Made by a program: the position numbers and the translations under genes
DNA from: Rhodovarius crocodyli
GTDB lineage: Bacteria; Pseudomonadota; Alphaproteobacteria; Acetobacterales; Acetobacteraceae
DNA length: 64,000 nt
Assembly (NCBI RefSeq): GCF_004005855.1
Contig: NZ_SACL01000008.1
Location: forward strand, 62,001 to 126,000
Direction of reading: 5' to 3'
Shown: one piece after another, positions 8,562 through 64,000 of the stretch
Layout of the letters: the number at the start of each line of letters is the position of its first letter
Numbering within the stretch: the stretch's first letter is position 1
Notes under the pieces: model-generated
What the model saw: only the letters and a program-made list of their open reading frames with translations
What the model was told of the DNA's origin: nothing
The model's database searches: none

Positions 8562-9398
8562 ATGCCCGAAGAAGCGACGAGCACGACGCCAGCCGCCGGC
8601 ACCCTGATGCAGGGTCGCCGTGGGCTGATCATGGGGGTGGCGAACCACCGCAGCATCGCTTGGGCCATCGCCCAGGCCTGCGCGGCACAGGGCGCCGAGA
8701 TAGCCTTCACCTTCCAGGGCGAGGCGCTGGAAAAGCGCGTCCGCCCGCTGGCCGCCAGCATCGGCAGCGATTTCGTCATTCCCTGCGACGTCTCGAGCGA
8801 CGAGCAGATGGATGCGGCCTTCGCCGAGGTGGAGAAGCGCTGGGGCAAGATCGATTTCTTCGTCCACGCCATCGGCTTCGCCAACAAGGAATACCTGCGC
8901 GGGCGCTACCTCGACACGCCGCGCGACGTGTTCCTGCAGGCGCTCGACATCTCCTGCTTCTCCTTCACCGCGACGGCGAAGCGGGCGGCGGCGATCATGA
9001 ACCCGGGCGGCTCGCTGCTCACCCTGTCCTATCTCGGGGCCGAGACCTGGATCCCGCACTACAACATCATGGGCGTGGCCAAGGCGGCGCTGGAGGCCAG
9101 CGTGCGCTACATGGCGGCCGACCTCGGGCAGGACGGCATCCGGGTGAACGCGATTTCCGCCGGGCCGATCAAGACACTGGCCGCCAGCGGCATCGGCGAT
9201 TTCAGCTACATGCTGAAGTGGAACCAGTACAACAGCATGATGCGCCGCAATGTGGGCCTCGAGGAAGTCGGCAATTCCGGCCTCTACCTGCTCTCCCCGC
9301 TCTCCACCGGCGTGACCGGAGAGGTGCATCACGTCGACTGCGGCTATCACGCCGTGGGCATGAAGCACCCCGACGCGCCGGACATGACGGTCGAGTGA
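8562..9398 (+). CDS. fabI: Enoyl-[acyl-carrier-protein] reductase (NADH)
   Basis: 278 residues; the last reductive step of fatty acid elongation. The fold is an atypical short-chain dehydrogenase. It has the FabI cofactor motif [13 protein letters not shown] at about 25-37 instead of TGxxxGIG. The catalytic pair is Tyr167 and Lys174 in YNIMGVAK, and a further Tyr is in SYLGAE. The start MPEEATS gives a slightly long N-terminus; the conserved part begins near [10 protein letters not shown]. The HAD gene starts one base after its stop. Confidence 0.96.
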
Positions 9399-50680: not shown

Positions 50681-50705
50681 TTCGCCGAAAGCGCCGTTCT
50701 TTCAG

Positions 50706-50733
50706 GGGGTTCCGGGCAACCGGAACCCCTTAT
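50706..50733 (+). terminator. Rho-independent terminator of leuCDB
   Basis: A perfect 10-bp stem, GGGGTTCCGG and CCGGAACCCC, is capped by a GCAA tetraloop and followed by TTATTCTT. Confidence 0.85.
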
Positions 50734-50846
50734 TCTTGGCAAGCCACCTTGCCGCATGGGGCCTCTGCAAAAAACCCATCATAATTTGGCGGCAGGTGGG
50801 TTGCGCCCGAACGCTTCCTCAGCCAAATAGGCGCCACCCAAGGCAA

Positions 50847-50923
50847 GCACCCGTAGCTCAGCTGGATAGAGCACCAGACTACGAATCTGGGGGTCAGGAG
50901 TTCGAATCTCTTCGGGTGCGCCA
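50847..50923 (+). tRNA. tRNA-Arg (anticodon ACG)
   Basis: 77 bases with encoded CCA. Acceptor arms GCACCCG and CGGGTGC pair over 7 bp. The D arm contains AGCTCAGCTGGATAGAGC. The anticodon stem CCAGA/TCTGG encloses the loop CTACGAA, so the anticodon is ACG (CGU/CGC/CGA after A34 deamination). The T arm has AGGAGTTCGAATCTCT. Its 3' 42 bases are repeated exactly at 59761-59802, which marks it as the attachment site of the island that follows. Confidence 0.97.
50882..50923. repeat. attL: 3' end of tRNA-Arg, 42-bp direct repeat copy 1
   Basis: The 42 bases from the anticodon loop to the CCA end, starting CGAATCTGGGGGTCAGGAG, recur without mismatch at 59761-59802 in the same orientation. Integration here leaves the tRNA gene intact. 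Confidence 0.92.
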
Positions 50924-51565
50924 GGGTTTTCCTTTTTAAATTCAGTAGATTACGAGCAGTCCGCGAGGATGCTCTAGCTGGCATGCGTTTTGGTTGCGGG
51001 CTCTCGACGGACTCCCTGGAATGGCCATGCATGGCGTCGCTTGTCGGTTACAGGCGACGCGGGCGTTATCTGGCTCACGGCGCCCGGGTAGCCGAGACAA
51101 CGCGATCACGGGCAATCAGCGCCTGAGTTGAGCTTCACTCTCGCGACCGAACAGCCCTAATGCGCCGGTTCCGTCCATGCCCCTCATCTCAGCAAGTCAC
51201 GCGGCCACCGCATGCGTTGCACCCAGCCGCCCTGCAACAGCCCCCTTGCACCCTCCCTGCAACGGCTGACTAGCGAATGCGCGCGCGACTGTGCCCCGTA
51301 TAGACGGAGGCCCAGGAGGGACCCGCGATTTAAGGGCTGGCTGGAGGGTTGCAGCAACTGAACCCCGCTGAACCGCTTTCCTGAACTCTGGACTGGTTCA
51401 GCGGCACGCCGTGGCCAGCCGTATAGAGGCGCCCCGGGATCCCGCCACAGCTCGAAGCGCGCCTGGCCATGGATGGCAAGTGCAGTGCGCACCAGCAGCA
51501 GGGCTTGCTCCAATGAGAAAAATCTAAGCCATCACGCTGCCAGACCCTGTATCGGATGGTTGGCC
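50924..51565. other. Gene-poor left end of the island
   Basis: About 640 bases after the tRNA without a convincing gene. A minus-strand frame at 51184-51513 contains ALLLVRTALAIHGQARFELW and a short overlapping frame starts at 51569. Neither has a clear start signal or a family I recognise. They may be remnants of a decayed island gene. Confidence 0.5.
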
Positions 51566-52102
51566 TCAATCAGACGCCAAGACGCGCTGTAACAGCACAG
51601 TGTCCAACCAACAGCCATGCTTGCGCCCCACGTTGCGCAGCGTGCCGACCATCTCGAAACCATGCTTTAGGTGCAGCCGCACCGAAGCCTGATTGGCGCT
51701 GTCGCCCACCACCGCGATCATCTGCCGATAGCCACGCGCCACGCAGGCCTCGATCAGCGCGCCCAGCAGCATCGAACCCATGCCCCGCCCCGCCCGGTCG
51801 ACGCGCAGGTACACGGAATTCTCCACAGTGGCCCCATAGGCCGCGCGCGGGCGATAGGCGCTGGCATAGCTGTAGCCCACCACCTCGCCATCCAGTTCGG
51901 CGACCAGATAGGGGTAGCCCTTCTCCAGCAACGCATCGCGCCTGCGCGTCATCTCCTCGGTGTCCGGCGCTTCCGTCTCGAAGGAGGCCTTACCGTGCAG
52001 CACATGGTGGCCATAGATCGCGGCGATCGCCGCCATGTCCCCGGCCGCCACAGGCCTGATCACCGGGCGGCCCAGCGCCGCCGCCATCATCGTCTCGCTC
52101 AT
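51566..52102 (-). CDS. GNAT N-acetyltransferase (phosphinothricin/MddA-like)
   Basis: 178 residues. GNAT fold with PVIRPVAAGDMAAIAAIYGH at the start, the SFETEAPDTEEMTRRR segment typical of the phosphinothricin acetyltransferase/YncA group, VENSVYLRVDRAGRGMGSML (acetyl-CoA pyrophosphate loop), and VGDSANQASVRLHLKHGFE. Relatives acetylate L-amino acid analogues such as methionine sulfoximine, sulfone or phosphinothricin. It is the first recognisable island gene and is divergent from the LysR gene. Confidence 0.9.
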   Translation of the reverse strand: MSETMMAAALGRPVIRPVAAGDMAAIAAIYGHHVLHGKASFETEAPDTEEMTRRRDALLEKGYPYLVAELDGEVVGYSYASAYRPRAAYGATVENSVYLRVDRAGRGMGSMLLGALIEACVARGYRQMIAVVGDSANQASVRLHLKHGFEMVGTLRNVGRKHGCWLDTVLLQRVLASD

Positions 52103-52239
52103 CGTCGCTCCTCGGCCTCAGGGCCATCGGTGGTGATGTCGCGCCTGCTGCACGTCTCCCACAAGAAGGAAAAGCTTCACTGTACGCAAAGCCCTGGCGC
52201 GGGAGTGCGCCGGCAAACGGCTGATGGTAGTCAGCACCC

Positions 52240-53130
52240 ATGCACGGCCTCACCCTGCGCCAGATCCGGGCCTTTCTGGTCACTGTCGAGCTCGGCAGCG
52301 TCGCCGCCGCCGCGCGCAACCTGGGCCTGACCCAGCCCGCCGTGGGCCAGCAACTGCGTGAACTGGAAGGCCAGCTGCGCGTGCGCCTGTTCGAGAAGGT
52401 GGGCACGCGGCTGCACCCCACCCCCGCCGGCCAGGCCTTGCTGGAACCCGCGCGGGAGGTCATGGCAGCCCTGACCCACCTGCAGGAAACCGGCACGCGC
52501 TTCCGTGCGGGCGATGCCGGGCATATCCGCCTGGGCACCGGGGCCACCGCCTGCATCTACTTCCTGCCGGAGCGCCTGCGCCGCGTGCGGCAATCCCTGC
52601 CCGGCGTCGAGATCGCCGTCAGTACCGGCAACACCGCTCCCATGTTGCAGGCGCTGATGGAAGGCACGCTGGACGCCGCCCTGGTGACCGGCGGGCCCGA
52701 CGAGGTGCCCACCAGCCTGGTGGCGGAACTGCTGTTCCATGACCCGCTGATGGCCCTGCTGCCCCACCCGCTGGCCGACGCCTTGCCGGAAACACTCTCG
52801 CCGGCCGATCTGGCTGCGCATCCGCTGCTGCTGCACGCCCGGGGCAGCGTGACGCGCAACCTGGTGGACCGCTGGTTCCAGGAAGGCGGCCACGGCGTGG
52901 TGCCGGGCATGGAGTTCGACAGCATCGCCGCGATCCGGGAGCTGGTGGCGGCAGGGCTCGGCTGCGCCATCGTGCCTGGCATGGCAGCGCGCGTTCCGCA
53001 CCCTGAACTGGTGGCGCGGCCGCTCTCGCCCGCTCTCACCAGGCCGATCTGCCTAGTGCTGCGGGCCAATCAGGTGCCGGACGCAGCCCTGCGCCTGCTG
53101 GCGGCAGAGCTGCGCGCGGCGAAACCTTAA
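52240..53130 (+). CDS. LysR-family transcriptional regulator
   Basis: 296 residues. The N-terminal winged helix LTLRQIRAFLVTVELGSVAA, then ARNLGLTQPAVGQQLRELEG and VRLFEKVGTRLHPTPAG, is standard LysR. The C-terminal effector domain is a type 2 periplasmic-binding fold. Its targets may be the divergent acetyltransferase gene (138 bases away) or the dioxygenase gene. Its 3' end overlaps the converging dioxygenase gene by 4 bases. Confidence 0.93.
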   Translation: MHGLTLRQIRAFLVTVELGSVAAAARNLGLTQPAVGQQLRELEGQLRVRLFEKVGTRLHPTPAGQALLEPAREVMAALTHLQETGTRFRAGDAGHIRLGTGATACIYFLPERLRRVRQSLPGVEIAVSTGNTAPMLQALMEGTLDAALVTGGPDEVPTSLVAELLFHDPLMALLPHPLADALPETLSPADLAAHPLLLHARGSVTRNLVDRWFQEGGHGVVPGMEFDSIAAIRELVAAGLGCAIVPGMAARVPHPELVARPLSPALTRPICLVLRANQVPDAALRLLAAELRAAKP

Positions 53131-54221
53131 GCGAAAGCCGGCGTCAGCGGGTTCAGCGGAATGTTCAGCGCGCGCCGCTCAGGGATATTCACCCCGCCGC
53201 GGACGCTGCCGCGCGTGATGTTCACCCAGCGCTCTGCGATGGCCGGATGCAGCTCACGCCCATCCGGCAGGGACAGCCAGATACGCATCAGGTGCCGCTT
53301 GCGCTCGACTTCCGGCCAGTCGGTGAAGGAGGTGCGAGCGTGGAACACCACATGGTTCTGTACGAACTGGAAATCGCCGGGCTCGAAGGGAATGCGCGCG
53401 CAGAACTCGTCGGAGTTGCACAGGTCCAGGAACATCCGCATGGCCTGCCACTGGCGTTCCGTCATCGGCGGCGCTTCCTCGAAGCGGCGGGCGGATTGCA
53501 GATAGGCCTCCAGCGGAGCGTAGCCGGTAAAGGTGTTGTCCTGCCACATGAACAGAGGGATGCGCATCCAGGGCTGCTTGCCGGCCGGCACCTCGCCGCG
53601 GCGGTCGCAGGTCAGCGGCTCATACAGGGCGCGGCACAGGTCGGGGGCGGTGCGCATCATCTCGTCATGGATGGCCATGGCGCTGACGAGCGCGCTGGCC
53701 CCGCCTTCCTTCGCGGTGTGGATGCACATCAGCCCCACCACGTCGCAGCTGTCGGAATGGAAAGCGAGCTCGGCATTGGTCTGGGTCAGGCGCTTGTTCA
53801 CGTCATCGGGCGAAGTGCCGATGTCGATCACATGGCCGAGCATGTGGCCGTTGCGGTTCTGCGGCACCACGTCGCCCAGATGCAGCGACAGGCCGAAATA
53901 CAGGCGCATCTGCGTCTCGGTGTCGTAGCGCTCGACCGGCAGGCCGCGCATGTAGGCAAAGCCCAGGCGGTTAAGGATGTCGCTGCGCAGGGTTGCGATC
54001 TTGGGTGCCAGGCCCGGCAGCGGGAAATCCTCGCGGCGCAGGGCCAGGATGTCGATGTGACGGCTGGCGGCGGCGGCCGCCTCCAGCTCGGCGATCTCCT
54101 CGGCATTCAGGCGATGGATCCAGCTCTGGTCACGCTCGAGGTCGGCGGCGCGCCAGGCGAGTGGGCCGCCGATGGGGCCGGGGGCGAATTCCAGCAGGCC
54201 GAGATCGGTCTGGACGGACAT
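53127..54221 (-). CDS. TauD/TfdA-family 2-oxoglutarate-dependent dioxygenase
   Basis: 364 residues. The Fe(II) ligands are in AFHSDSCDVVGL (His-x-Asp) and the distal His in NHVVFHARTSF. The 2-oxoglutarate-binding Arg follows in KRHLMRIWLSLPDGRE. The N-terminal 70 residues, rich in Glu and Ala (LNAEEIAELEAAAAASRHID), mark a large uncharacterised subgroup often found beside ABC importers. Taurine and 2,4-D are the classic substrates of the family, but this subgroup's substrate is unknown. It lies 109 bases downstream of the GntR gene on the same strand. Confidence 0.9.
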   Translation of the reverse strand: MSVQTDLGLLEFAPGPIGGPLAWRAADLERDQSWIHRLNAEEIAELEAAAAASRHIDILALRREDFPLPGLAPKIATLRSDILNRLGFAYMRGLPVERYDTETQMRLYFGLSLHLGDVVPQNRNGHMLGHVIDIGTSPDDVNKRLTQTNAELAFHSDSCDVVGLMCIHTAKEGGASALVSAMAIHDEMMRTAPDLCRALYEPLTCDRRGEVPAGKQPWMRIPLFMWQDNTFTGYAPLEAYLQSARRFEEAPPMTERQWQAMRMFLDLCNSDEFCARIPFEPGDFQFVQNHVVFHARTSFTDWPEVERKRHLMRIWLSLPDGRELHPAIAERWVNITRGSVRGGVNIPERRALNIPLNPLTPAFA

Positions 54222-54299
54222 GGTGCTTCTCCTGTGTCTGCAACCGGGGGCAACTCACCACAGGCCGGTCGCGGGGAAATCGCGGGAAAAACCTTCGCT

Positions 54300-54316
54300 A
54301 AGCCCAGGGCGGGCTT
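54300..54316 (-). terminator. Weak terminator after the importer operon
   Basis: On the minus strand AAGCCC and GGGCTT form a 6-bp stem with a 5-base loop, followed 8 bases later by TTTTT. It may separate the importer operon from the dioxygenase gene. Confidence 0.4.
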
Positions 54317-54330
54317 TGCGTTGTCACCAA

Positions 54331-55041
54331 TCAGAAATCGACGGAAAGCTGCACGCGGTCGCCCCGGAAGCGGGTCAGCGCGTATTCCACCGGCGTGGCG
54401 TCGGCGGCCGAGACGTTGAGGCTCTTCACCCGCAGCACCGGCTGACGACTGCCGATGCCCAGCAGCCGAGCGTCATTGCCCCGCGGCATGATGGAACTGA
54501 TGACACTGCTGACCCGGCGCAGTGCCAGGCCGTGCTGCTCCTTCAGCCAGCCATGCAGAGAACCGCCCCTGTATTCCGTCGCCAGGTACGGGCAGCAGGC
54601 GGCCGGCATGAAATGGGTGATGAGACAGAAGGGCCGCTCATCAACCGAGCGCAGCGTCTCCAGCCGGAAGACCGGCGCGCCCTCCCCCAGTCGCAGCGCG
54701 CGGGCCACGCCGCCCTCGGCACGGTCCTCGGCCAGTTCCAGCACCCGCGTATCGGTGCTGTGGCCCAGCTCCATCAGCGTGGAAGTGAAGCGCGTGCTGG
54801 GCTGCAACGGGTACTCGATGCCGGTGTCGAGCACATAGCTGCCGACGCCCTTGCGGCTTTCCAGCAGGCCGTTCTGCACCAGCTCCGCGATGGCGCGGCG
54901 CAGGGTGTGGCGGTTCACGCCGAAGCGCTTCGTCAGCGTGCCCTCGGAGGGCAGCAGCTCTCCGGGGCGGTACAGGGCGCGGATCTCGCTGCCTATCTGG
55001 TGGGCCAATTGCATGTAGATGGGCAGGGCCGTGTCACTCAT
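54331..55041 (-). CDS. GntR-family regulator, HutC/PhnF subfamily
   Basis: 236 residues from MSDTALPIYMQLAHQIGSEI. Winged helix with YRPGELLPSEGTLTKRFGVN and RHTLRRAIAELVQNGLLESR. The C-terminal UTRA effector domain (PVFRLETLRSVDERPFCLIT and VSSVISSIMPRGNDARLLGI, then PVLRVKSLNVSAADATPVEY) places it in the HutC group, with overall similarity to PhnF. It is the last gene of the importer operon and probably represses it through the palindrome at 59313-59326. Its start overlaps the stop of the small gene upstream (ATGA). Confidence 0.9.
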   Translation of the reverse strand: MSDTALPIYMQLAHQIGSEIRALYRPGELLPSEGTLTKRFGVNRHTLRRAIAELVQNGLLESRKGVGSYVLDTGIEYPLQPSTRFTSTLMELGHSTDTRVLELAEDRAEGGVARALRLGEGAPVFRLETLRSVDERPFCLITHFMPAACCPYLATEYRGGSLHGWLKEQHGLALRRVSSVISSIMPRGNDARLLGIGSRQPVLRVKSLNVSAADATPVEYALTRFRGDRVQLSVDF

Positions 55042-55193
55042 GGCGCGCGCGCCTGCAGCAACAGCGCGAGGCCGGGCTCCGAGCTCGCCAGCGCCAGGTC
55101 GCGCAGCGTGCCCATTTCCTCTGGCGCGGCCAGGATCGCGGCGAACCATGCCGCGACCACCAGCCACGCCCCCAGCAGCAGGGTCCGTCGCAT
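55038..55193 (-). CDS. 51-residue small membrane or secreted protein within the importer operon
   Basis: The frame starts MRRTLLLGAWLVVAAWFAAI, a single hydrophobic segment after two Arg, followed by LAAPEEMGTLRDLALASSEP and a short hydrophobic end. Its ATG overlaps the binding-protein stop (TGATG) and its stop overlaps the GntR start (ATGA). Both junctions are of the coupled type, which supports translation. It could be a one-helix inner-membrane protein or a secreted peptide cleaved after ILA. I do not recognise the family. Confidence 0.55.
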   Translation of the reverse strand: MRRTLLLGAWLVVAAWFAAILAAPEEMGTLRDLALASSEPGLALLLQARAP

Positions 55194-56452
55194 CAGCGCG
55201 GCAGCAGCGCGTTGACCTGCTCGACCGAGCGGGCCAGCGCCTGTTCGGGCGTGGAGCGGCCGGCGACGGTGGCCTCCATCGCGGCATAGACCGCATCGAT
55301 GGCCTTCAGGCTGTTCGGCCCCGGGAAGCCCAGCCAGCCTGTAGCACGCGGCAGCTGCGACAGGCTGGTGCGGGTGTTGCGGTCGCGGGCGTAGTAGTTG
55401 CCCAGCAGCTCCGGCGTCTCGATGGCAACCCGACTGCACGGCAGGTAGCCGATGTGGTTTACCATGATGGTCTGGCCGATCGGGCCGGTGGCGAAGCGGA
55501 TGTACTTGTAGGCCGCCTGGCGCTTGTCCTCGGTGCGGGAGAACAGGGTGGCCGCCGCACCGCCGGAGACGATGCGCGCATCGGGGTTCGGCACCGGGAA
55601 GGGCGCGGTGCGCAGCGTGTAGCGCTCGCCGATCTGCGCCATCAGCGTGTTGAGGTTGGCCGAGGAAGTCAGGTGCATGCCGATATTGCCGGCGATGAAG
55701 TCCTGCATCGCCTGCTCGGCGGTGGCGTCAGCCATGCCGCCGCGCGTCACCATCTCCCGCAGCAGCTGGAAGGAGCGCAGGCCCTCCGGGCTGTCGAAGC
55801 CCACGCGCTTGCCGTCCTCGCTCAACAGCTTGCCGCCATGGGAGAACAGCAGCGCCTGGAACAGGTAGTTGCCGGTGGTCTGCCACTTGATGTCGATGCC
55901 CTTGGCGGGTGCGCCGAGAGCGGTGATGCGCTGCGCCCAGTCCAGCATGCCGGGCCAGTCGGCCGGCGGCGCATCGGGGTCGAGGCCCGCGCGGCGCACC
56001 AGTTGCTCGTTGTAGAAGGTGATGGGCGTGGAGAGCGCGAAGGGCACCGCATACTGGTGGCCGCCCAGATGCCCGGTCGACAGCATCGCCGGGATATAGC
56101 CGTCGCGGGCAAAACCCTCATCGGCGGCGATATAGGGGTCGAGCGGCACGGCCAGGCGGCGGTCCACGAACAGGTGCAGCAGGTTGGTGCCGTTATAGAC
56201 CACGTCCGGGATGGAGTTGGTCACGGCGCCGCGCAGCACGGCACTCGCCGCTTCCTCATAGGCGCGAGTGGGCGCCAACAGGCGGACGGTGATGCTGGGC
56301 TCGCGCTTGGCGAACTCGCGCACGATCGTCTCGTGCGCTTCCTTGTACAGGCCAGGCTGGCTGTACAGCACGGTGACTTCGACATTGGCGGCGCGGGCGA
56401 TAGTGGGCACAGCCAGGGCGGCGCTGCCCATCAGGATGGAACGGCGATGCAT
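55193..56452 (-). CDS. ABC transporter substrate-binding protein, UgpB-like family 1
   Basis: 419 residues. Signal peptide MHRRSILMGSAALAVPTIARA. The mature protein has the family 1 pattern: VEVTVLYSQPGLYKEAHETI, PDVVYNGTNLLHLFVDRRL, and the hinge segment QYAVPFALSTPITFYNEQLV, then AGNIGMHLTSSANLNTLMAQ. It is close in layout to glycerol-3-phosphate/glycerophosphodiester binding proteins. It lies 46 bases after the UgpE-like permease gene. Ligand specificity is not provable here. Confidence 0.9.
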   Translation of the reverse strand: MHRRSILMGSAALAVPTIARAANVEVTVLYSQPGLYKEAHETIVREFAKREPSITVRLLAPTRAYEEAASAVLRGAVTNSIPDVVYNGTNLLHLFVDRRLAVPLDPYIAADEGFARDGYIPAMLSTGHLGGHQYAVPFALSTPITFYNEQLVRRAGLDPDAPPADWPGMLDWAQRITALGAPAKGIDIKWQTTGNYLFQALLFSHGGKLLSEDGKRVGFDSPEGLRSFQLLREMVTRGGMADATAEQAMQDFIAGNIGMHLTSSANLNTLMAQIGERYTLRTAPFPVPNPDARIVSGGAAATLFSRTEDKRQAAYKYIRFATGPIGQTIMVNHIGYLPCSRVAIETPELLGNYYARDRNTRTSLSQLPRATGWLGFPGPNSLKAIDAVYAAMEATVAGRSTPEQALARSVEQVNALLPR

Positions 56453-56498
56453 GGGTATCTCCGGGGAAACGGGGAAGGAAGGCGGGCGGCGGCGGTGG

Positions 56499-57302
56499 CT
56501 ACTTCATGGCCACCAGCCCCTCGATGAAGCGGCGCTGCAGCAGCAGGAAAGCGGCCACCAGCGGCAAGGCGATGATCAGCGCGCCGGCCATCAGGGCGCC
56601 GTACTCGGTCCCTGCCTCCTGCGTCTGGAACAGCATGACGCCGAAGGGGGGCGTGGCCCGCTCGGCGGAGGTGACGACGATGGACGGCCAGTAAAGTTCG
56701 TTCCAATGCGCCACCAGCGAGATGATGGCGAAGGCGCCCAGCGTGGGCCGCGCCAGCGGCAGCAGCACGCGCACCAACAATTCCAGCTCCGACAACCCGT
56801 CCAGCCGCGCGGCCTCGATGATCTCGTCAGGCACGCGGCGGAAGAACTGGCGCATCAGGAAGATGCCGAGGGATGACACCACCCAGGGCAGCACCAGCGC
56901 CGGCAGGCTGTCCATCAGCCCCAGCATCGCGACCATGACGAACAGAGGCATGGCCAGCACGGGTGCCGGCACCATCAGCCCCAGCAGCACGCCGCCCCAC
57001 AGCGTCTCCCGCCCCGGGAAGCGCAGCTTCGCCAGGGCGTAGCCGGCCGGCACCATGATCAGCACCTGGAAGAACAGGATCAGCGAGCAGACCGCGATGC
57101 CGTTGCCGATGAAGCCGAACAGCGGCGAGGCGGTGACGGCGCGGCCGTAATTGGCGGCGATGGCATCGAGGCTCGGCATCGTCAGCAGTCGCGCGCCGAT
57201 GATGGCGTCCTGCGGCCTGGTCGAGACCAGCGCGGCCCAGAGAATGGGCAGCAGCATCAACGCCGCGGCCAGGATCAGAAGCGGGTGGCGCCACCGGCTC
57301 AT
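56499..57302 (-). CDS. ABC transporter permease, UgpE-like
   Basis: 267 residues, six predicted membrane helices. The EAA cytoplasmic loop that docks on the ATPase reads EAARLDGLSELELLVRVLLP. The start MSRWRHPLLILAAALMLLPI overlaps the stop of the partner permease gene by 4 bases (ATGA). Typical inner-membrane subunit of the MalG/UgpE group. Confidence 0.92.
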   Translation of the reverse strand: MSRWRHPLLILAAALMLLPILWAALVSTRPQDAIIGARLLTMPSLDAIAANYGRAVTASPLFGFIGNGIAVCSLILFFQVLIMVPAGYALAKLRFPGRETLWGGVLLGLMVPAPVLAMPLFVMVAMLGLMDSLPALVLPWVVSSLGIFLMRQFFRRVPDEIIEAARLDGLSELELLVRVLLPLARPTLGAFAIISLVAHWNELYWPSIVVTSAERATPPFGVMLFQTQEAGTEYGALMAGALIIALPLVAAFLLLQRRFIEGLVAMK

Positions 57303-58195
57303 GCCGCGCCCCCGCGCCGGCCGAGCCGCAATTGGAGCATGCCGAGCGTCAGCGTGATGGCCAGGAAGAACACGGTGGCCGTCGCCGCCACATTGGTGCG
57401 GAAGAAAGAGAACCCCTCCTGGTAGATGACAAAGAGCAGCACGCGGGTGGCATTGCCCGGCCCGCCCTGAGTCAGCAGCGCCACGGTGTCGAACACCATC
57501 ACCGCATGGGCCGTCAGCACCACCAGCACGAACAGGGCGATGGGCGCGATATGCGGCGCCGTGACCAGCCAGAACCGGTCCCAGCCGCCGCCCAACCCGT
57601 CGATGCGCGCGGCGTCGTGCAGCTCAGTGGGGACGGAGGTGAGGGCCGCCAGAAAGAACACCATGGCAAAGCCGGTCTCGTGCCAGATGCCGATCAGGGC
57701 CAGCACCGGCAGTGCCGTGTTCTCGTCGCGCAGCCAGTTCGCGACCGGCAGGCCGAGCGCCGCCAAGCCTTGGTTCACCGGCCCGAAGGAGGGGTGCAGC
57801 AGCATCTGCCAGGCGATGGACATCGCCGCCAGCGTGGCGATGTAGGGAAGGAAGAAGATGGTCTGGTAAACCGTCCGCCCACGCCGCGCGCCTTGCAGCA
57901 GCATGGCGAGCCCAAGGCCCAGCAGCAGCGCCCCCGGCACCACCATCAGCGTGTAGCGCGCCGTGACCAGCACCGAGGCCTGGAAGTCATGGTCCGCGAT
58001 CAGGGCGCGGAAATTGTCGAGGCCGACGAAATTCGGTGCCTCGCCGCCCAGCTGCCAGTCGGTGAAGGCGGCGCAGACCACCAGCACAAGCGGCCCGATC
58101 TGCAACAGCAGCATCAGCAGCGCGGCCGGGCCGGCCAGCAGAATGCCCTTGGGCAGCGGGCGCGATAGAGGTGCTGCGAGCGCCAGGTCAGACAT
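57299..58195 (-). CDS. ABC transporter permease, UgpA-like
   Basis: 298 residues from MSDLALAAPLSRPLPKGILL; six membrane helices with a large loop after the first (LGGEAPNFVGLDNFRALIAD), as in MalF/UgpA proteins. The EAA-type loop is HDAARIDGLGGGWDRFWLVT. It overlaps the ATPase gene by 8 bases, so the two are cotranslated. Confidence 0.92.
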   Translation of the reverse strand: MSDLALAAPLSRPLPKGILLAGPAALLMLLLQIGPLVLVVCAAFTDWQLGGEAPNFVGLDNFRALIADHDFQASVLVTARYTLMVVPGALLLGLGLAMLLQGARRGRTVYQTIFFLPYIATLAAMSIAWQMLLHPSFGPVNQGLAALGLPVANWLRDENTALPVLALIGIWHETGFAMVFFLAALTSVPTELHDAARIDGLGGGWDRFWLVTAPHIAPIALFVLVVLTAHAVMVFDTVALLTQGGPGNATRVLLFVIYQEGFSFFRTNVAATATVFFLAITLTLGMLQLRLGRRGGAA

Positions 58196-59300
58196 GGGCA
58201 AGCGCCATAGCCGGCGCATGGGGCCGGCTTTGCCCCGCCGCATCGAACAGTAGCGTGGCCTCGGGGCGGGGTTCCAGACGCACCGTCTCGCCGGCGGTCA
58301 GGCCGGGGCCGGGCTCCAGCCGCGCGACCAGCGGCTGGCCCAGGCATTCACCATGCAGGAAGCTGTCGGCACCGTGGCTTTCCAGCCGGCGCACCAGAAC
58401 CGGCAGGCCGTCGCCGGAAAGCCGGAACGCCTCCGGCCGCCAGGCGAGGGTGACATCCTGCCCCGCCAGTTCCGGCGCCACGCGATGCAGCGCGTGCGGG
58501 CCCAGGCGCAAGAAGCCGCCCTGGTCCACCCGGGTTTCGAAGCGGTTCAGCCTGGTGGTGCCGATGAACTCCGCCACCGCCAACGAGGCCGGGGCACGGT
58601 AGATCTCCTCCGGCGCCGCGAACTGCGCGATGCGGCCGCCCAGCATGACGGCGATGCGGTCGGAAATCGCCATCGCCTCCGCCTGGTCGTGGGTGACGAA
58701 GACGGTGGTGATGCCGAACTGGCGCTGGATCTGCGAGATCTCGTCGCGGGTCTGCAGCCGCAGCCGGGCGTCCAGGCTCGACAGCGGCTCATCCATCAGC
58801 AACAGGCTGGACTGGCGGATCAGCGCCCGGCCGAGCGCAACGCGCTGGCGCTGGCCGCCGGACAGCGCGGCGGGCTTGCGGTCCAGCAGAGGCTCGATCT
58901 CCAGCGTGCGGGCCATGGCCGCAACCTCCGCGTCGATATCGGCCGCCACTGCCCCGCCCAGGCGCAGCATCCGCCGCCAACGGCTCAGCCGCCGCACCCG
59001 CAGCGGCAGGGCGATGTTCTCCCGCACCGTCATCTGCGGGTAGAGCGCGAAATTCTGGAACACCATGGCGATGTCGCGCTCGCTGGGCGCGACGCCGGTC
59101 AGCTCACGCACGCCAAGGCGGATACTGCCGGTATCGGCCTGCTCCAGCCCGGATAGGATGCGCAGCAGGGTGGATTTGCCACAGCCGGAAGGCCCCAGCA
59201 GGCTGACGAACTCGCCAGGCCGGACATCCAGGGAGATGTCACGTAAAACATCCACAGCACCGAAGCGCTTGGAAAGCTGTCCGATCGAAAGCTGCGTCAC
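58188..59300 (-). CDS. ABC transporter ATP-binding protein, UgpC/MalK-like
   Basis: 370 residues from a GTG (MTQLSIGQLSKRFGAVDVLR). Walker A is GPSGCGKST, the signature ALSGGQRQRVALGRAL, Walker B LLLMDEPLSSLDARLR, and the switch His in FVTHDQAEAMAI. The C-terminal 120 residues are the TOBE regulatory domain of the MalK group. An in-frame ATG at 59354 would add 18 unconserved residues and would swallow the HutC-type operator. First gene of the importer operon. Confidence 0.93.
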   Translation of the reverse strand: MTQLSIGQLSKRFGAVDVLRDISLDVRPGEFVSLLGPSGCGKSTLLRILSGLEQADTGSIRLGVRELTGVAPSERDIAMVFQNFALYPQMTVRENIALPLRVRRLSRWRRMLRLGGAVAADIDAEVAAMARTLEIEPLLDRKPAALSGGQRQRVALGRALIRQSSLLLMDEPLSSLDARLRLQTRDEISQIQRQFGITTVFVTHDQAEAMAISDRIAVMLGGRIAQFAAPEEIYRAPASLAVAEFIGTTRLNRFETRVDQGGFLRLGPHALHRVAPELAGQDVTLAWRPEAFRLSGDGLPVLVRRLESHGADSFLHGECLGQPLVARLEPGPGLTAGETVRLEPRPEATLLFDAAGQSRPHAPAMALAHV

Positions 59301-59312
59301 GCTGTTTGCCCG

Positions 59313-59338
59313 CCTGTCTAGACAGGCTGTAGACAGCC
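59313..59338. promoter_or_regulatory. HutC/PhnF-type operator at the head of the importer operon
   Basis: CCTGTCTAGACAGG at 59313-59326 is a perfect 14-base palindrome. It overlaps a second dyad, GGCTGT-AG-ACAGCC, at 59325-59338. Both share the TGTNTAGACA-like core expected for HutC-subfamily GntR repressors (remembered consensus GTMTAKAC). It lies 13 bases before the ATPase start codon. Binding by the GntR protein encoded at 54331-55041 is inferred. Confidence 0.65.
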
Positions 59339-59406
59339 ATGGAGACAAGAGCATGAATGGGAAATGATAGTTTGAGGTCGTCGGTGGGGCGGGAGCAGGC
59401 AGAGCT

Positions 59407-59724
59407 CTATTCGCGAACGCCACCCGTTGCCAGCTCTGGCCATCGCTCTCGGCTTGACGGCTTCGTCGCCCTCTCGGGCGGCAACGCAGCCCGCCTGCTA
59501 TCTGCCTCTGGTCGCTCTGCCGGTCCGAGCACATGATCGGCCCATGCTTGCAGCGCCTTCGCCCTCTCATCGGCGAAGTCGTCGACCTGATACACACCCT
59601 TCACGCCCTGGCTCATGCTGCTGGCGGCATGGTTCAGGATGCGATCTGCGACATCTGGCAATATTTCCAAGGGCGCCATCGCGGAAATTCCCAGCCTATT
59701 CAACCACTTGTCGTCTCCTGTCAT
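59407..59724 (-). pseudogene. Tyrosine-type integrase, C-terminal remnant
   Basis: A 105-codon frame holds RLGISAMAPLEILPDVADRI, then LNHAAS and GVKGVYQVDDFADERAKALQ. These match the last 60-70 residues of P4-like phage integrases. The Tyr in KGVYQ is the recombinase nucleophile and NH is the last active-site His. The usual N-terminal DNA-binding domains and the first Arg and His-x-x-Arg are missing. An in-frame stop lies a few codons before the apparent ATG and the att copy lies 36 bases beyond. The remaining 40 C-terminal residues are atypical. Confidence 0.8.
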
Positions 59725-59760
59725 TTGATGGCTCTACTTGACGTATAGATTTTCGCTTCT

Positions 59761-59802
59761 CGAATCTGGGGGTCAGGAGTTCGAATCTCTTCGGGTGCGC
59801 CA
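59761..59802. repeat. attR: 42-bp direct repeat copy 2 (tRNA-Arg 3' fragment)
   Basis: A perfect copy of 50882-50923, ending TTCGGGTGCGCCA. It has no 5' half of a tRNA, so it is a recombination scar and not a gene. It marks the island-chromosome junction. Confidence 0.92.
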
Positions 59803-59872
59803 CGGGGCTTTCCCCATACAATCAGTGCCTTGTAAGCGGCGGGATCGGCACGATCGCGTCCCGGCAGGCGGA

Positions 59873-60262
59873 CTATCTGTCGCCCAGCCAATGCCCCAGC
59901 CCGGCGACCGTCGCGGTCAGCACCGTTCCCCAGGCCAGGTCGATCACCGTCACCATCACCGGCCAATCGCGCAGCGTCGCCTGGTTCGTCAGGTCATAGG
60001 TGCCATAGGCCACCAGCCCCAGCACCGCGCCGCGCCATGCCGCTCCCTGCCAGGTCGCGGCGGGAAGCTGGGCCAGCACCAGAACCCCCGCCAGATACAG
60101 GAAGTAGAAGGTCACGGCGGGCGCCAGCCCGAAGCCCTCCGCCCGCATCAGATGACCGATGCGCGCCCGATACAGCGGCTCGGCCGACAGCTTCAGCCAG
60201 GCGGCATCGATCGGCAGCATCACCGCCGCCGAGATGAGATACATCTTTAGCCAAGCGGCCAT
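59873..60262 (-). CDS. DUF2177 family membrane protein
   Basis: 129 residues with four predicted membrane helices. The DUF2177 features are the first-helix motif LISAAVMLPIDAAWLKLSAE, VLGLVAYGTYDLTNQATLRD, and DLAWGTVLTATVAG. Function unknown. In other alphaproteobacteria it often lies with DUF1365 and the FAD oxidoreductase in the sigma-E/ChrR regulon. The ATG overlaps the DUF6134 stop (TGATG). It is the last operon gene, about 70 bases from the island junction. Confidence 0.85.
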   Translation of the reverse strand: MAAWLKMYLISAAVMLPIDAAWLKLSAEPLYRARIGHLMRAEGFGLAPAVTFYFLYLAGVLVLAQLPAATWQGAAWRGAVLGLVAYGTYDLTNQATLRDWPVMVTVIDLAWGTVLTATVAGLGHWLGDR

Positions 60263-60930
60263 CACGTCACCTCGTATTGAATGGTGGACCCATCCCTGCC
60301 GCGAAACCGCAGGCCGACCCAGGCGGGCGTCGCGTCGTACCAGCTCTCCAGATCGGCATCGCCCGTCATCACATAGCGGCGGGCCGTCCGGGCGCCGTTC
60401 CAGGGAAGGGGCGCGGTTTCGGCCGGGCGTATGGCGGGTCGCATCACCTCGCCCGTCTGTGTGTTGATGAAGGGGTTATCCAGCATGTGCCGGTTCCAAT
60501 GCGTGGCCGGCGTGGCACCAGCCGGCGCCAGATAGCGTCCGGCCTTGCTGCTATCGACGCGCAGCGCCTCGCCCTCCGCCCGCATGGCGATCGTCGTCCG
60601 CTCGCCATCATCGTTCGTCTCGGCCTGGAAGGCGGTGACGCGGTCGCCGGTCCAGCTTTCCGTCGCACGGTGGGTGTAGCGGAACAGCGTGATGGGCCCG
60701 ATGCCCACCGCGATCTCCACGTTGATCCGCACCAGCAGGCCGTCGCCCCGGGTTTCGAAACGCAGTTCATGCCGGCCGATGGCGCTGCCGTTGCGCATGA
60801 TGCGGAAGGCCAGCAGGTTCGCGCGCGGCACCGGCAGCGCCGCCCGCGCGGGTGATGCGGCGGCCAGCCCCAGAAGCGGCAGAACCCGCCGGGGGAAAGC
60901 CGCCAGACCGTTGCCCGGAACCGCGCTCAT
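60262..60930 (-). CDS. DUF6134 family exported protein
   Basis: 222 residues from MSAVPGNGLAAFPRRVLPLL, with a probable signal peptide ending near SPARA. The mature protein is beta-rich: FRIMRNGSAIGRHELRFETR, then TLFRYTHRATESWTGDRVTA, then THWNRHMLDNPFINTQTGEV, the pattern of DUF6134. Function unknown; the fold suggests a periplasmic lipid- or ligand-binding protein. Coupled to both neighbours by ATGA and TGATG overlaps. Confidence 0.8.
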   Translation of the reverse strand: MSAVPGNGLAAFPRRVLPLLGLAAASPARAALPVPRANLLAFRIMRNGSAIGRHELRFETRGDGLLVRINVEIAVGIGPITLFRYTHRATESWTGDRVTAFQAETNDDGERTTIAMRAEGEALRVDSSKAGRYLAPAGATPATHWNRHMLDNPFINTQTGEVMRPAIRPAETAPLPWNGARTARRYVMTGDADLESWYDATPAWVGLRFRGRDGSTIQYEVT

Positions 60931-61703
60931 GCCTTCGATCCTTCCTGGCCGATGCTGACCGGATCGGCCGGCGCCGCGGGGCGCGGGCGCAGCCGCATGC
61001 CCTTTCGCCACAGCTTCAGCGCCTCCCAGTGGATGCCCGCCAGCACGCGCAGCGCCAGCAGCGGATGGGCCAGGAAGCTGCGCAGCAGCGCGGCATCGGA
61101 CAGGTCGCGCCGCCTGCCGGAGAAGGCGGCGAACAGCAGCGGCCCGCCCGCATCGCGGGCCTCGACGCCCAGCGCCACGGTCTCGCCCGGCCGCGTCAGC
61201 CGGAAGGCATAGGACTGGTCCATGTCCATGAAGGGCGAGACGTAGAAGCGCTTGTCGCAGCGCTGCCGGATGTCCGGCCCCTGGTCCGTCACCGGCAGCA
61301 GATAGCTGTGGCGCTGGCCGAAGGTGTTGTTCACCTCATACAGCATGGCCTGCAGCGTGCCGTCCGCGCGGTGGCAGAAGTAGACGGTGATCGGGTTGAA
61401 CACCATGCCGAGCACCCTGGGCATGCACAGCGCCAGGATGCGCCCGCCGGTCTGCAGCCCTGCCCCGGCCAGCCAGCCGTCGATCTGCCGCGCGAGCGGC
61501 ACCGCGCTGCCGTCGCCATGGTCGCGATCATGGAAGGAGAACAGCGCACGGCGGTTATGCCCGAACAGCCGCAGCCGGTCGCTCAACCCCGGCATCTCGT
61601 CCAGGTCCAGCAGCAGGTTCAGCATGCGATAGCGCAGCCGGTGCCTGACCGGGCGCAGCCGGGAATGCACCACCGCGCCCTCATAGATCGCGGAGGCGGT
61701 CAT
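60927..61703 (-). CDS. DUF1365 family protein
   Basis: 258 residues from MTASAIYEGAVVHSRLRPVR. The hallmarks are HRLRYRMLNLLLDLDEMP, PRVLGMVFNPITVYFCHRAD, YEVNNTFGQRHSYLLP, and KRFYVSPFMDMDQSYAFRL. The family is almost always next to an FAD-dependent oxidoreductase and often a cyclopropane-fatty-acyl synthase; genetic studies link it to furan fatty acid or lipid modification under singlet oxygen stress. Overlaps the FAD gene by 4 bases. Confidence 0.9.
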   Translation of the reverse strand: MTASAIYEGAVVHSRLRPVRHRLRYRMLNLLLDLDEMPGLSDRLRLFGHNRRALFSFHDRDHGDGSAVPLARQIDGWLAGAGLQTGGRILALCMPRVLGMVFNPITVYFCHRADGTLQAMLYEVNNTFGQRHSYLLPVTDQGPDIRQRCDKRFYVSPFMDMDQSYAFRLTRPGETVALGVEARDAGGPLLFAAFSGRRRDLSDAALLRSFLAHPLLALRVLAGIHWEALKLWRKGMRLRPRPAAPADPVSIGQEGSKA

Positions 61704-63001
61704 GCGGGGATGCCCTGGGGCAGCGCGTGGATGCGGGAGCTGCCGGGCACCACATCCCAGGGGCGGCGCATGTTGCCCAGCTGCTCGGCCACCGCGAGCC
61801 CGGCCTGCAGCCCGTCCTCGTGGAAGCCCGCGCCGAACCAGGCGCCGCAATACCAGGTGCGCCGCGTGCCCTGCAGAGACCAAAGGGCGCGCTGGGCCCG
61901 GATGGCCGCGGCATCGAATTGCGGGTGGGCGAAATGCTCCTCATGCAGCACGTCGCGCGGAGTGCGGCCCGGGTTTAGGGTCACGAAATGCCGCTCCGGC
62001 CCCGGAAGCCGCTGCAACAGGTCCATCCAATAGGTGACGGACAGCCCGCCATCGGGCCGGTCCAGATAGTTCCAGCTGGCCCAGGCACGCCCCCGGCGGG
62101 GCATCAGCGTCTGATCCCGATGCAGCACGACACGGTTGGGCGAGGTGGGCAGCGCGGCCAGCAGCGCGGCCTCGCTGTCCGAGGGGTCCTCCAGCATGGC
62201 CAGCGCCTGGGGGGCGTGGGTCGCGATCACCACCTCGTCATAGCGCTCGGTGGCGCCGCTGCTGTCGGTCACCAGCACGCCGTCCTCGTCGCGGCGGATG
62301 GCCTCCGCGCCGCAGCCCCGGCGGATGGAATGCTCGAAGGATGCGGTCAGGCGCCGGACATATTCCCGGCTGCCGCCCGAGACGGTTCGCCACACCGGCC
62401 GGTCGCGCAGCTTCAGCAGGCCGTGATTCTCGCAGAACCGGATGAAGGCGGTGGCCGGATAGGCGCCGACCTCGCCGGCCGGGGTCGACCAGATGGCCGC
62501 CGCCATGGGCAGCAGGTGGTCCTGCACGAAGCCGGGGCCGAAGCCCTGGTTGGCCAGGTATTCATCCAGGCTGATCAGCTCGCTCTCCAACCCTGGCGCG
62601 TCCAGCGGTGCCTGGCGATAGAAGCGCAGCACATCGCGCAGCATGCCCCAGAAGCGGGGGCTCAACAGGTTGCTGGGCTGCGCGAACAGGCCGCGCAGGT
62701 CGGTGCCCGCATACTCGCGCCGGCCGCCGTCCAGCGACACCGCGAACGACATGTCCGACGCCTGGGTCGGCACGCCCAGGTGGCGGAACAGCGCGATCAG
62801 GTTCGGATAGGTCGCCTCGTTGTAGACGATGAAGCCCATGTCGACCGGCACGCCCGCGGGGGTATCGACGGTGCGGCTGTGGCCGCCGGTCCGGTTCTCC
62901 CGCTCATAGACCGTCACATCCATGGCATGGGACAGCAGCCAGGCGGCCGACATGCCAGAGATGCCGGTGCCCACCACCGCCACGCGCCGCTGCTTGCCCA
63001 T
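61700..63001 (-). CDS. FAD/NAD(P)-dependent oxidoreductase (amine-oxidase-like) of the DUF1365 cluster
   Basis: 433 residues from MGKQRRVAVVGTGISGMSAA; the dinucleotide fold VGTGISGMSAAWLLS is followed by YERENRTGGHSRTVD. The C-terminal FAD motif is WYCGAWFGAGFHEDGLQAGL. An upstream in-frame ATG at 63034 would give 11 more residues, but the inferred promoter favours 63001, with GGAAGG upstream. The family acts on fatty acids in the DUF1365 cluster; the exact reaction is not established by sequence. First gene of the four-gene operon and divergent from rpoE. Confidence 0.9.
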   Translation of the reverse strand: MGKQRRVAVVGTGISGMSAAWLLSHAMDVTVYERENRTGGHSRTVDTPAGVPVDMGFIVYNEATYPNLIALFRHLGVPTQASDMSFAVSLDGGRREYAGTDLRGLFAQPSNLLSPRFWGMLRDVLRFYRQAPLDAPGLESELISLDEYLANQGFGPGFVQDHLLPMAAAIWSTPAGEVGAYPATAFIRFCENHGLLKLRDRPVWRTVSGGSREYVRRLTASFEHSIRRGCGAEAIRRDEDGVLVTDSSGATERYDEVVIATHAPQALAMLEDPSDSEAALLAALPTSPNRVVLHRDQTLMPRRGRAWASWNYLDRPDGGLSVTYWMDLLQRLPGPERHFVTLNPGRTPRDVLHEEHFAHPQFDAAAIRAQRALWSLQGTRRTWYCGAWFGAGFHEDGLQAGLAVAEQLGNMRRPWDVVPGSSRIHALPQGIPA

Positions 63002-63052
63002 GCGAACCTTCCATGCCGTCATCATGTCCAGCAACGGGCGGCCTGCTGGTCT

Positions 63053-63077
63053 GGATCACCCGAACAAGCGGTGATCC
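63053..63077. promoter_or_regulatory. Back-to-back RpoE-type -35 elements
   Basis: GGATCA at 63053-63058 (TGATCC on the minus strand) and TGATCC at 63072-63077 are separated by 13 bases and point away from each other. TGATCC is the -35 element I recall for the Rhodobacter sphaeroides RpoE regulon. At a spacing of 18 the -10 regions read TTGCTG (minus) and TTATGG (plus), which are weaker. Confidence 0.6.
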
Positions 63078-63160
63078 GAATGCGGCCGCCGGCCGTTATG
63101 GGGGTGATGGTTGATCTGGCGACACGACATGAAGCCAAGCGGCGGTCGGATTCCCGCGGG

Positions 63161-63730
63161 GTGAGCGACACGCTGCCCCCCGAGGAAGCCGTGGCCCTGC
63201 TGTGCCGCGTCGCGGCCGAGGCCGATCGCGCGGCCTTCGCGACGCTGTTCGCGCATTTCGCGCCCCGGCTGAAGACCTATCTCATGCGCCTCGGCCTGCC
63301 CTCCGCGGGGGCCGAGGAGCTGGCGCAGGAGACGATGCTGACGGTCTGGCGCCAGGCCGCGCAGTTCGACCCGGCGAGCACCGGCGTCGCGGGCTGGATC
63401 TTCACCATCGCGCGCAACCGGCGCCTGGATGCCGCGCGGCGGGACCAGGTGCGCAGCCGCCTGCGGGACCATCTGGACCCGGCGCAGCTGGAAACCTCCG
63501 CCCCTCCGGTGGCCGATACGGCACTGGATGAGGCCGAGCGCGGCGCGCGGCTTCACCAGGCCCTGCGGCACCTTCCGGCGGACCAGCTGGAGGTGCTGCG
63601 GCTCTCCTTCTTTGACGAACGCCCGCACGCGGAGATCGAACGCGCGCTCGGCATTCCGCTCGGCACGGTCAAGTCACGGCTGCGCCTGGGCATGATGCGG
63701 CTGCGGAAGCTGCTGGATGACATGCAATGA
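63161..63730 (+). CDS. rpoE: RpoE/ECF sigma factor of the ChrR-controlled group
   Basis: 189 residues from a GTG (MSDTLPPEEAVALLCRVAAE). Sigma region 2 is FATLFAHFAPRLKTYLMRLG with EELAQETMLTVWRQAAQFDP, and region 4 is HLPADQLEVLRLSFFDERPH followed by RALGIPLGTVKSRLRLGMMR. The FAHFAPRLK opening is typical of the alphaproteobacterial RpoE that answers singlet oxygen. In-frame ATGs at 63098 and 63107 are possible starts, but they would overlap the inferred promoter. Its stop overlaps the anti-sigma start (ATGA). Confidence 0.9.
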   Translation: MSDTLPPEEAVALLCRVAAEADRAAFATLFAHFAPRLKTYLMRLGLPSAGAEELAQETMLTVWRQAAQFDPASTGVAGWIFTIARNRRLDAARRDQVRSRLRDHLDPAQLETSAPPVADTALDEAERGARLHQALRHLPADQLEVLRLSFFDERPHAEIERALGIPLGTVKSRLRLGMMRLRKLLDDMQ

Positions 63731-64000
63731 CCGGTAACCATCCCTCCGACGCCACCTTGCTGGCCTATGCCGCGGGCAGCCTTCCCCTGGCCCATGCCAT
63801 GGTGGTGCGCACCCATCTGGCCCTGTGCCCCGATTGCCGGGAGGCCGCGCGCCTCGGCGTCTCGCTGGGCGGCGCCCTGCTGGAGGATGCCCCGCCCGCT
63901 GATCTGGCCGGCGATGCGCTGGAACGCACCCTGGCCCGGCTCGATGAGCAGGAACCGCTGGCCCCGGCGCAGCGCGTGCCCTCCACCATCGAGGAACTGG
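63727..64000 (+). CDS. chrR: ChrR-type zinc anti-sigma factor, N-terminal part
   Basis: Open to the right edge; 91 codons visible. It begins MTGNHPSDATLLAYAAGSLP and has the zinc anti-sigma motif HLALCPDCREAARLG (His-x3-Cys-x2-Cys). In Rhodobacter ChrR holds RpoE inactive until singlet oxygen triggers its release and degradation. The C-terminal cupin domain needed for that response, if present, lies outside the window. Coupled to the sigma gene. Confidence 0.88.
   Translation, partial: MTGNHPSDATLLAYAAGSLPLAHAMVVRTHLALCPDCREAARLGVSLGGALLEDAPPADLAGDALERTLARLDEQEPLAPAQRVPSTIEEL

Follow-up and report, generated by a model that had tools for sequence, protein, structure and literature searches.

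How did the last 42 bases of a tRNA-Arg(ACG) gene come to stand a second time, 8.9 kb downstream, in the genome of Rhodovarius crocodyli, and what do the genes enclosed between the two copies do? The stretch analyzed here (the window) comprises 64,000 nucleotides of contig NZ_SACL01000008.1, and the original prediction, drawn from its letters alone, was that these 8.9 kb are an island inserted at the tRNA gene, with an integrase remnant beside the second copy and a compact nutritional cargo. Our analysis indicates that the 8.9-kb unit is very probably the remnant of a tRNA island at tRNA-Arg(ACG), a clearly marked island of an ordinary kind.

The tRNA-Arg(ACG) site and the adjoining integrase remnant

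ARAGORN identified a single tRNA in the 64-kb window, a tRNA-Arg(ACG) at 50847-50923 on the plus strand, and an Rfam scan of 50700-60300 revealed nothing besides it. The final 42 bases of this gene are repeated perfectly downstream, on the strand of the gene itself, as originally described, with 8,879 bp between the two copies from start to start. The exact match ends immediately at both edges, and its left edge falls within the anticodon. The features that define the site are the following.

50847..50923, plus strand: complete tRNA-Arg(ACG) gene, the probable integration target (ARAGORN, Rfam)
50882..50923, plus strand: left attachment (att) copy, the 3' part of the tRNA starting within the anticodon (exact repeat)
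59761..59802, plus strand: right att copy, the displaced 3' end of the tRNA (exact repeat)
59407..59724, minus strand: C-terminal remnant of an integrase, with homology at about 59509-59703 (matches to integrase C-termini)

With up to three mismatches allowed, a 29-mer of the repeat occurs at only two sites in the window, against an average of 0.00 in 100 shuffles. A search of the 287 bases around the tRNA against the organism's own genome, with scores computed for 18 of the 68 first-look candidates, returned four matches: the tRNA itself, the copy at 59761 (98%) and two others at 76-77%.

The arrangement can be compared with the tRNA islands cataloged in Islander. As there, the tRNA shares a replicon with a piece of its own 3' end, the fragment is downstream and in the same orientation, and the length lies within 2-200 kb; the crossover in the anticodon is likewise of a main class, accounting for 2083 of 3919 islands in the portions of the Islander paper drawn on here (PMC4383910). 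The same portions require an integrase open reading frame (ORF) inside the island and call such islands putatively active, whereas only a stub is present here, with homology left over about 65 residues. We therefore speak of the remnant of a tRNA island and not of an active one.

The stub ORF has no match in Pfam, NCBIfam or the PDB, and among PHROG families it matches only those of unknown function (best phrog_17497, E 1.5e-5). It does align with the C-termini of integrase frames, mostly of 390-604 amino acids, and matches of this type are present in 33 of 150 family genomes at E 1e-3, the organism's own included; on this homology the predicted integrase remnant is real. The stub shares with Arm-domain tyrosine integrases of the phage type (PF00589 and PF13356) the C-terminal VYQ tyrosine motif and a place beside an att copy; the HxxR region and the N-terminal part are missing from it (motifs judged by eye).

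An informative relative of the stub is a 450-amino-acid frame in a genome of another genus (G099), 47-48% identical across the stub, in which PF13356, PF22022 and PF00589 (the Arm-binding, central and catalytic domains) all score above cut-off and whose C-terminus is also matched by phrog_17497. About 110 bases before this frame, 38 nt match exactly a part of the tRNA-Arg(ACG) gene of the same genome, and the 5' side of this fragment faces the integrase, an orientation also seen in the window. Across 29 integrase loci examined with about 1.5 kb per side, a tRNA was found in three (Pro, Lys and Lys), and among 12 longer stretches, three of them from the organism's own genome, two held a tRNA and one, that of G099, a tRNA-Arg fragment. 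The G099 layout thus ties this type of integrase to tRNA-Arg(ACG), at one locus out of 12. A second broken integrase end was observed elsewhere in the organism's own genome (C22:348306-348481; L143:13310-13485), whose identity to the stub is 64-77% at the protein level and, over 134 columns of DNA, 75%; a search of 18 kb around it found no tRNA.

The tRNA, its displaced 3' fragment in the right order and orientation at 8.9 kb, the adjoining stub and the same layout in G099 support the island interpretation. On the proposed course of events, a tyrosine integrase would have inserted the element into tRNA-Arg(ACG) by a crossover in the anticodon region; the element would have given the tRNA a new 3' end, now the left copy, and displaced the old one by 8.9 kb, now the right copy; and all of the integrase gene except its C-terminal end would have been lost later. 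With the integrase so reduced and no transfer gene seen, the unit would now be fixed. Since it looks decayed, it is best read as no longer able to excise by itself unless another integrase acts.

The cargo operon and its counterpart in Siccirubricoccus phaeus

The cargo had been described as a complete ATP-binding cassette (ABC) importer, a dioxygenase, an acetyltransferase and two regulators, and assignments by Pfam and NCBIfam bear this out.

51566..52102, minus strand: GNAT acetyltransferase, nearest to ArsN1b / phosphinothricin acetyltransferase models, below cut-off (Pfam, NCBIfam)
52240..53130, plus strand: LysR-type regulator, nearest to the phn_lysR model, below cut-off (Pfam, NCBIfam)
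53127..54221, minus strand: TauD/TfdA-type dioxygenase (Pfam; HxD...H and Arg line up with those of FrbJ and 7n7v)
54331..55041, minus strand: GntR/UTRA regulator of the PhnF family, above cut-off (Pfam, NCBIfam)
55038..55196, minus strand: small hydrophobic ORF, start uncertain (ORF list)
55193..56452, minus strand: solute-binding protein, UgpB-like (Pfam, NCBIfam, PDB)
56499..57302, minus strand: permease, UgpE-like (Pfam, NCBIfam)
57299..58195, minus strand: permease, UgpA-like, start inferred (Pfam, NCBIfam)
58188..59300, minus strand: ATPase, UgpC-like, GTG start inferred (Pfam, NCBIfam)
59315..59324, no strand assigned: the palindrome TGTCTAGACA, a putative operator located 15-24 bp ahead of the operon's first gene

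The analysis adds that the GntR and dioxygenase genes lie on the strand of the importer, in one apparent operon, and that this operon also includes the small ORF at 55038-55196, for which neither Pfam nor NCBIfam gave a match. The minus-strand order is ATPase, two permeases, solute-binding protein, small ORF, GntR and dioxygenase, with frames that overlap or nearly abut; the LysR gene is convergent with the operon and the GNAT gene is separate. Outside the window, 7 kb farther right than the second att copy, lies a second LysR gene (67039-67959 on the window's scale; L091:3060-3947), which shares 83% DNA identity with the island LysR over 926 columns and adjoins a cyclopropane-synthase-like gene and a PdxR-like regulator.

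Scaffold27 of Siccirubricoccus phaeus 1-3 (G087; L126) is collinear with 52207-59331 at 80-82% DNA identity, with a gap near the small ORF. It harbors the ATPase, two permeases, binding protein, GntR, dioxygenase and LysR in the same order at 68.8-88.5% protein identity, a similar small hydrophobic ORF (by eye) between the binding protein and GntR genes at about 8923-9172, and TGTGTAGACA ahead of the ATPase and dioxygenase genes. It differs from the window in that no tRNA was found in the 40 kb read around the operon and no match to the GNAT or the integrase remnant in the 21 kb searched. DNA identity between the two starts and stops near the operon edges. At fourfold sites, identity to S. phaeus is 0.65-0.72 in five cargo genes and 0.57-0.63 in five core genes, so that most operon genes appear slightly closer than the core, which suits transfer after the genera parted and is no proof of it; the GntR (0.60) and LysR (0.51) genes, which are not closer than the core genes, weigh against it.

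Beyond S. phaeus, relatives of the cargo are distant. The dioxygenase has matches in 37 of 120 family genomes at E 1e-30 (best 88%, in S. phaeus; next 45%), and the binding protein in 81 of 397 at E 1e-70 (best 89%, again in S. phaeus; next 44%), with at most four candidates scored per genome for the binding protein. Searching 16 dioxygenase loci with the cargo proteins recovered the operon in S. phaeus alone, with partial matches to the ATPase (33%, in L135) and the GntR (24%, in L136 and L137). Plasmid-borne relatives of the binding protein (257 records) and of the dioxygenase (28 records) are all below 60% identity. A plasmid origin of the unit was also considered and rejected: partial matches to the 9-kb stretch occur in 197 plasmid records, none of which covers 80% of it, and the best place covers 4% among the matches listed.

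Putative operator and substrate of the operon

Three observations suggest a link between the operon and phosphonate metabolism. The GntR protein scores 216.6 on the PhnF model (TIGR02325; cut-off 156.8), its S. phaeus counterpart also scores above cut-off at 216.0 bits, and the host's own PhnF scores 239.2 bits. The palindrome TGTCTAGACA, which has its single occurrence in 158 kb of this contig before the operon, is also found between the divergent phnG and phnF genes (gene starts inferred) of the host's own carbon-phosphorus (C-P) lyase locus, in a genome that has PhnJ. Lastly, the dioxygenase scores 113.6 bits on PF02668 against a cut-off of 27, and at E 1e-3 the PDB contains just two relatives of it, 7n7v (E 6e-51), entitled 'Predicted hydroxylase', and FrbJ (5eqn, E 6e-37). 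Both are related to it in sequence, with the HxD...H and Arg residues aligned, which we take to be the metal and 2-oxoglutarate residues, and FrbJ presumably acts in FR-900098 biosynthesis, a role on which we found no paper.

Known phosphonate systems offer a partial parallel. PhnY*/PhnZ and TmpA/TmpB, in the parts of the review consulted (PMC10574752), likewise begin with a 2-oxoglutarate dioxygenase acting on a phosphonate, if the prediction for the island enzyme holds, and differ in that the island has no C-P cleaving partner among the ten proteins scanned. The same parts of that review describe PhnO as an N-acetyltransferase able to detoxify aminoalkylphosphonates. Our literature search found no paper on a PhnF/GntR operator for phosphonate, nor on 7N7V.

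In the organism's own genome the pattern TGTSTAGACA occurs at five places (C11, C22 and C46 among the contigs concerned), three of them perfect palindromes: one before the island operon, one between phnG and phnF, and one other. S. phaeus carries TGTGTAGACA at two TGTSTAGACA places, one preceding the ATPase gene of its operon and the other the dioxygenase gene, and it was after S. phaeus had been seen that the G variant was added to the pattern. A reversed control pattern gave 0 occurrences in the three genomes searched. The G variant has two copies in each of two genomes, where about 2.1 and 2.7 are expected, and the palindrome count alone proves little; the weight lies in the positions. Genome G005 presents the pattern at phnF/phnG and twice at another locus, and the operon was not found in it at high identity. 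That other locus and the C46 site lie near TctC-like, GNAT-like, GntR-like or transposase-like frames (mostly by eye); the palindrome is therefore not specific to phosphonate genes, and it also serves BguR.

On these grounds the part of the element that was kept may be a nutrient module, in which the Ugp-type importer would take up a small, perhaps phosphorus-bearing compound, the 2-oxoglutarate dioxygenase would oxidize it, and the PhnF-family GntR would repress the operon through TGTCTAGACA. We tentatively suggest that the cargo serves the uptake and oxidation of an organophosphonate or a similar compound, with binding, substrate and reaction all predicted from sequence. Appreciably less probable is the more specific proposal that the module feeds a new substrate to the resident C-P lyase, with its own Ugp-type importer replacing PhnCDE, an FrbJ-like dioxygenase, and a PhnF-family repressor reading the host phn operator so that both would be switched together.

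Several results weigh against a phosphonate substrate. The importer is nearest to sugar and glycerol-3-phosphate systems, and all its components score far below the curated Ugp cut-offs (UgpC 353.9/432, UgpA 131.1/335, UgpE 128.6/297, UgpB 72.4/411), and the GNAT and LysR proteins score below those of their models. Pfam and NCBIfam revealed no C-P cleaving enzyme in the ten island proteins scanned. The three perfect palindromes compare with about 1.1 expected from base composition, and TGTCTAGACA is also the site of BguR, a cellobiose-responsive GntR repressor, in the parts of its description used here (PMC3585215). Distant relatives of the dioxygenase occur without the operon and in other settings, and the ORFs around 12 of the 16 dioxygenase loci, read by eye without a family search, included no obvious phosphonate genes. 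That the cargo imports and oxidizes a non-phosphonate, such as a sugar or a glycerol-phosphate-like compound, accordingly has about an even chance of being correct. The PhnF score of the GntR, the palindrome shared with phnG/phnF, and a dioxygenase whose nearest PDB structures are FrbJ and 7n7v all speak against a non-phosphonate substrate and for the phosphonate reading.

Extent and possible origin of the presumably acquired DNA

We compared the tRNA-Arg regions of 16 relatives, with 325 bases to 16.7 kb of DNA read downstream of the tRNA; the short stretches lie at contig ends (G007, 325 bases; G003, 474; G015, 718). The leu genes left of the tRNA are kept in 13 of the 16, and in none does a match longer than 60 bases at E 1e-4 go further than 11 bases beyond the tRNA of the window. 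Within the DNA read, no relative shows an exact 13-nt repeat of its own tRNA downstream of the gene, which suggests that the 42-base repeat is peculiar to this genome, and none carries the cargo or a tRNA fragment right of the tRNA, in agreement with the original prediction. The 16 relatives likewise yielded no integrase of the stub's family on the right side of the tRNA. In G001 and G004 (L031 and L030), common DNA starts 173 bases and 10.9 kb after the tRNA-Arg, respectively, with no tRNA fragment marking the insert; the place right of tRNA-Arg therefore varies in other species too. The literature search found no paper on a tRNA-Arg genomic island with an integrase in Roseomonas.

Several points limit the case for an island bounded by the two copies. 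The search for an empty site in the 16 relatives, some of them with short stretches, was unsuccessful, as they have different DNA to the right of the tRNA. Composition gives no support either way, as the GC content of the island (0.60-0.72) is like that of its flanks. In G099, the fragment match ends 7 bases short of the tRNA end and the tRNA-Arg(ACG) gene lies on a different contig, so that the site pair is not visible there; with a tRNA-Arg fragment at only one of the 12 longer loci, and with two other integrase loci, both in the organism's own genome, adjoining tRNA-Thr and tRNA-Pro, the case for tRNA-Arg targeting comes from the G099 locus. Finally, the genus also has little of the DNA that runs from 59803 to about 70.7 kb, and the acquired stretch may therefore extend past 59802.

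This scarcity raises a rather unlikely alternative, in which the 8.9-kb unit belongs to a larger mosaic, acquired DNA continues past 59802 and several old boundaries exist, the second copy being one of them. Immediately right of the island, 59873-63034 holds DUF2177, DUF6134, DUF1365 and amine-oxidase-like genes, and the DUF1365 gene (60927-61823), present in other genera, has no match in any of eight genus mates at E 1e-30. Comparison of 59803-64000 with the same eight gave no long match among the matches listed, only some first-look candidates having been scored for this DNA. Genus-conserved DNA resumes at about 70.8 kb on the window's scale, spread over several G005 contigs, and a block in common with G008 starts 5.5 kb after the tRNA there and at 115.7 kb here. 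Synteny in the genus is broken in any case, so that absence from relatives beside the tRNA is no proof of insertion. A mosaic with several such boundaries is also disfavored by the lack of a third repeat copy in the organism's own genome and of any integrase of the stub's family in the 98 kb right of the island.

A phage connection is suggested by one further feature.

51246..51331, no strand assigned: prophage-like piece of 86 bases, 90.8% identical (87 columns) to C22:620404-620489

In the organism's own genome the matching bases belong to a prophage region, where a pair of terminase genes directly follows them. The claim that the unit has no phage or transfer genes accordingly held in part: no transfer gene was seen and none of the ten island proteins scanned is a phage protein by Pfam or NCBIfam, while this piece is prophage-like. 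The element may have been phage-related, a question that one short piece cannot settle. An origin as a prophage or phage satellite, whose genes the operon later joined or replaced, would agree with the position of this left-end piece and with an S. phaeus operon that exists without an integrase and whose DNA identity is bounded near its edges; given a single short non-coding piece and ten proteins without a phage family, we consider it doubtful. Tandem tRNA-Arg genes, found in G011, G019 and G087, would suit a second copy that is a broken tRNA duplicate left by ordinary rearrangement without site-specific integration. This is very improbable, since the copy spans the anticodon to the exact tRNA end, lies 8.9 kb off and has a stub adjoining it as in G099.

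The remnant island at tRNA-Arg(ACG) is a clear illustration of the end of a tRNA island, with an integrase stub, exact attachment marks and useful cargo retained. Its operon is a testable candidate for organophosphonate uptake and oxidation, and its most interesting point is the PhnF wiring: the sharing of an operator with the host phn locus, if true, would show acquired uptake genes joining a switch already in place.

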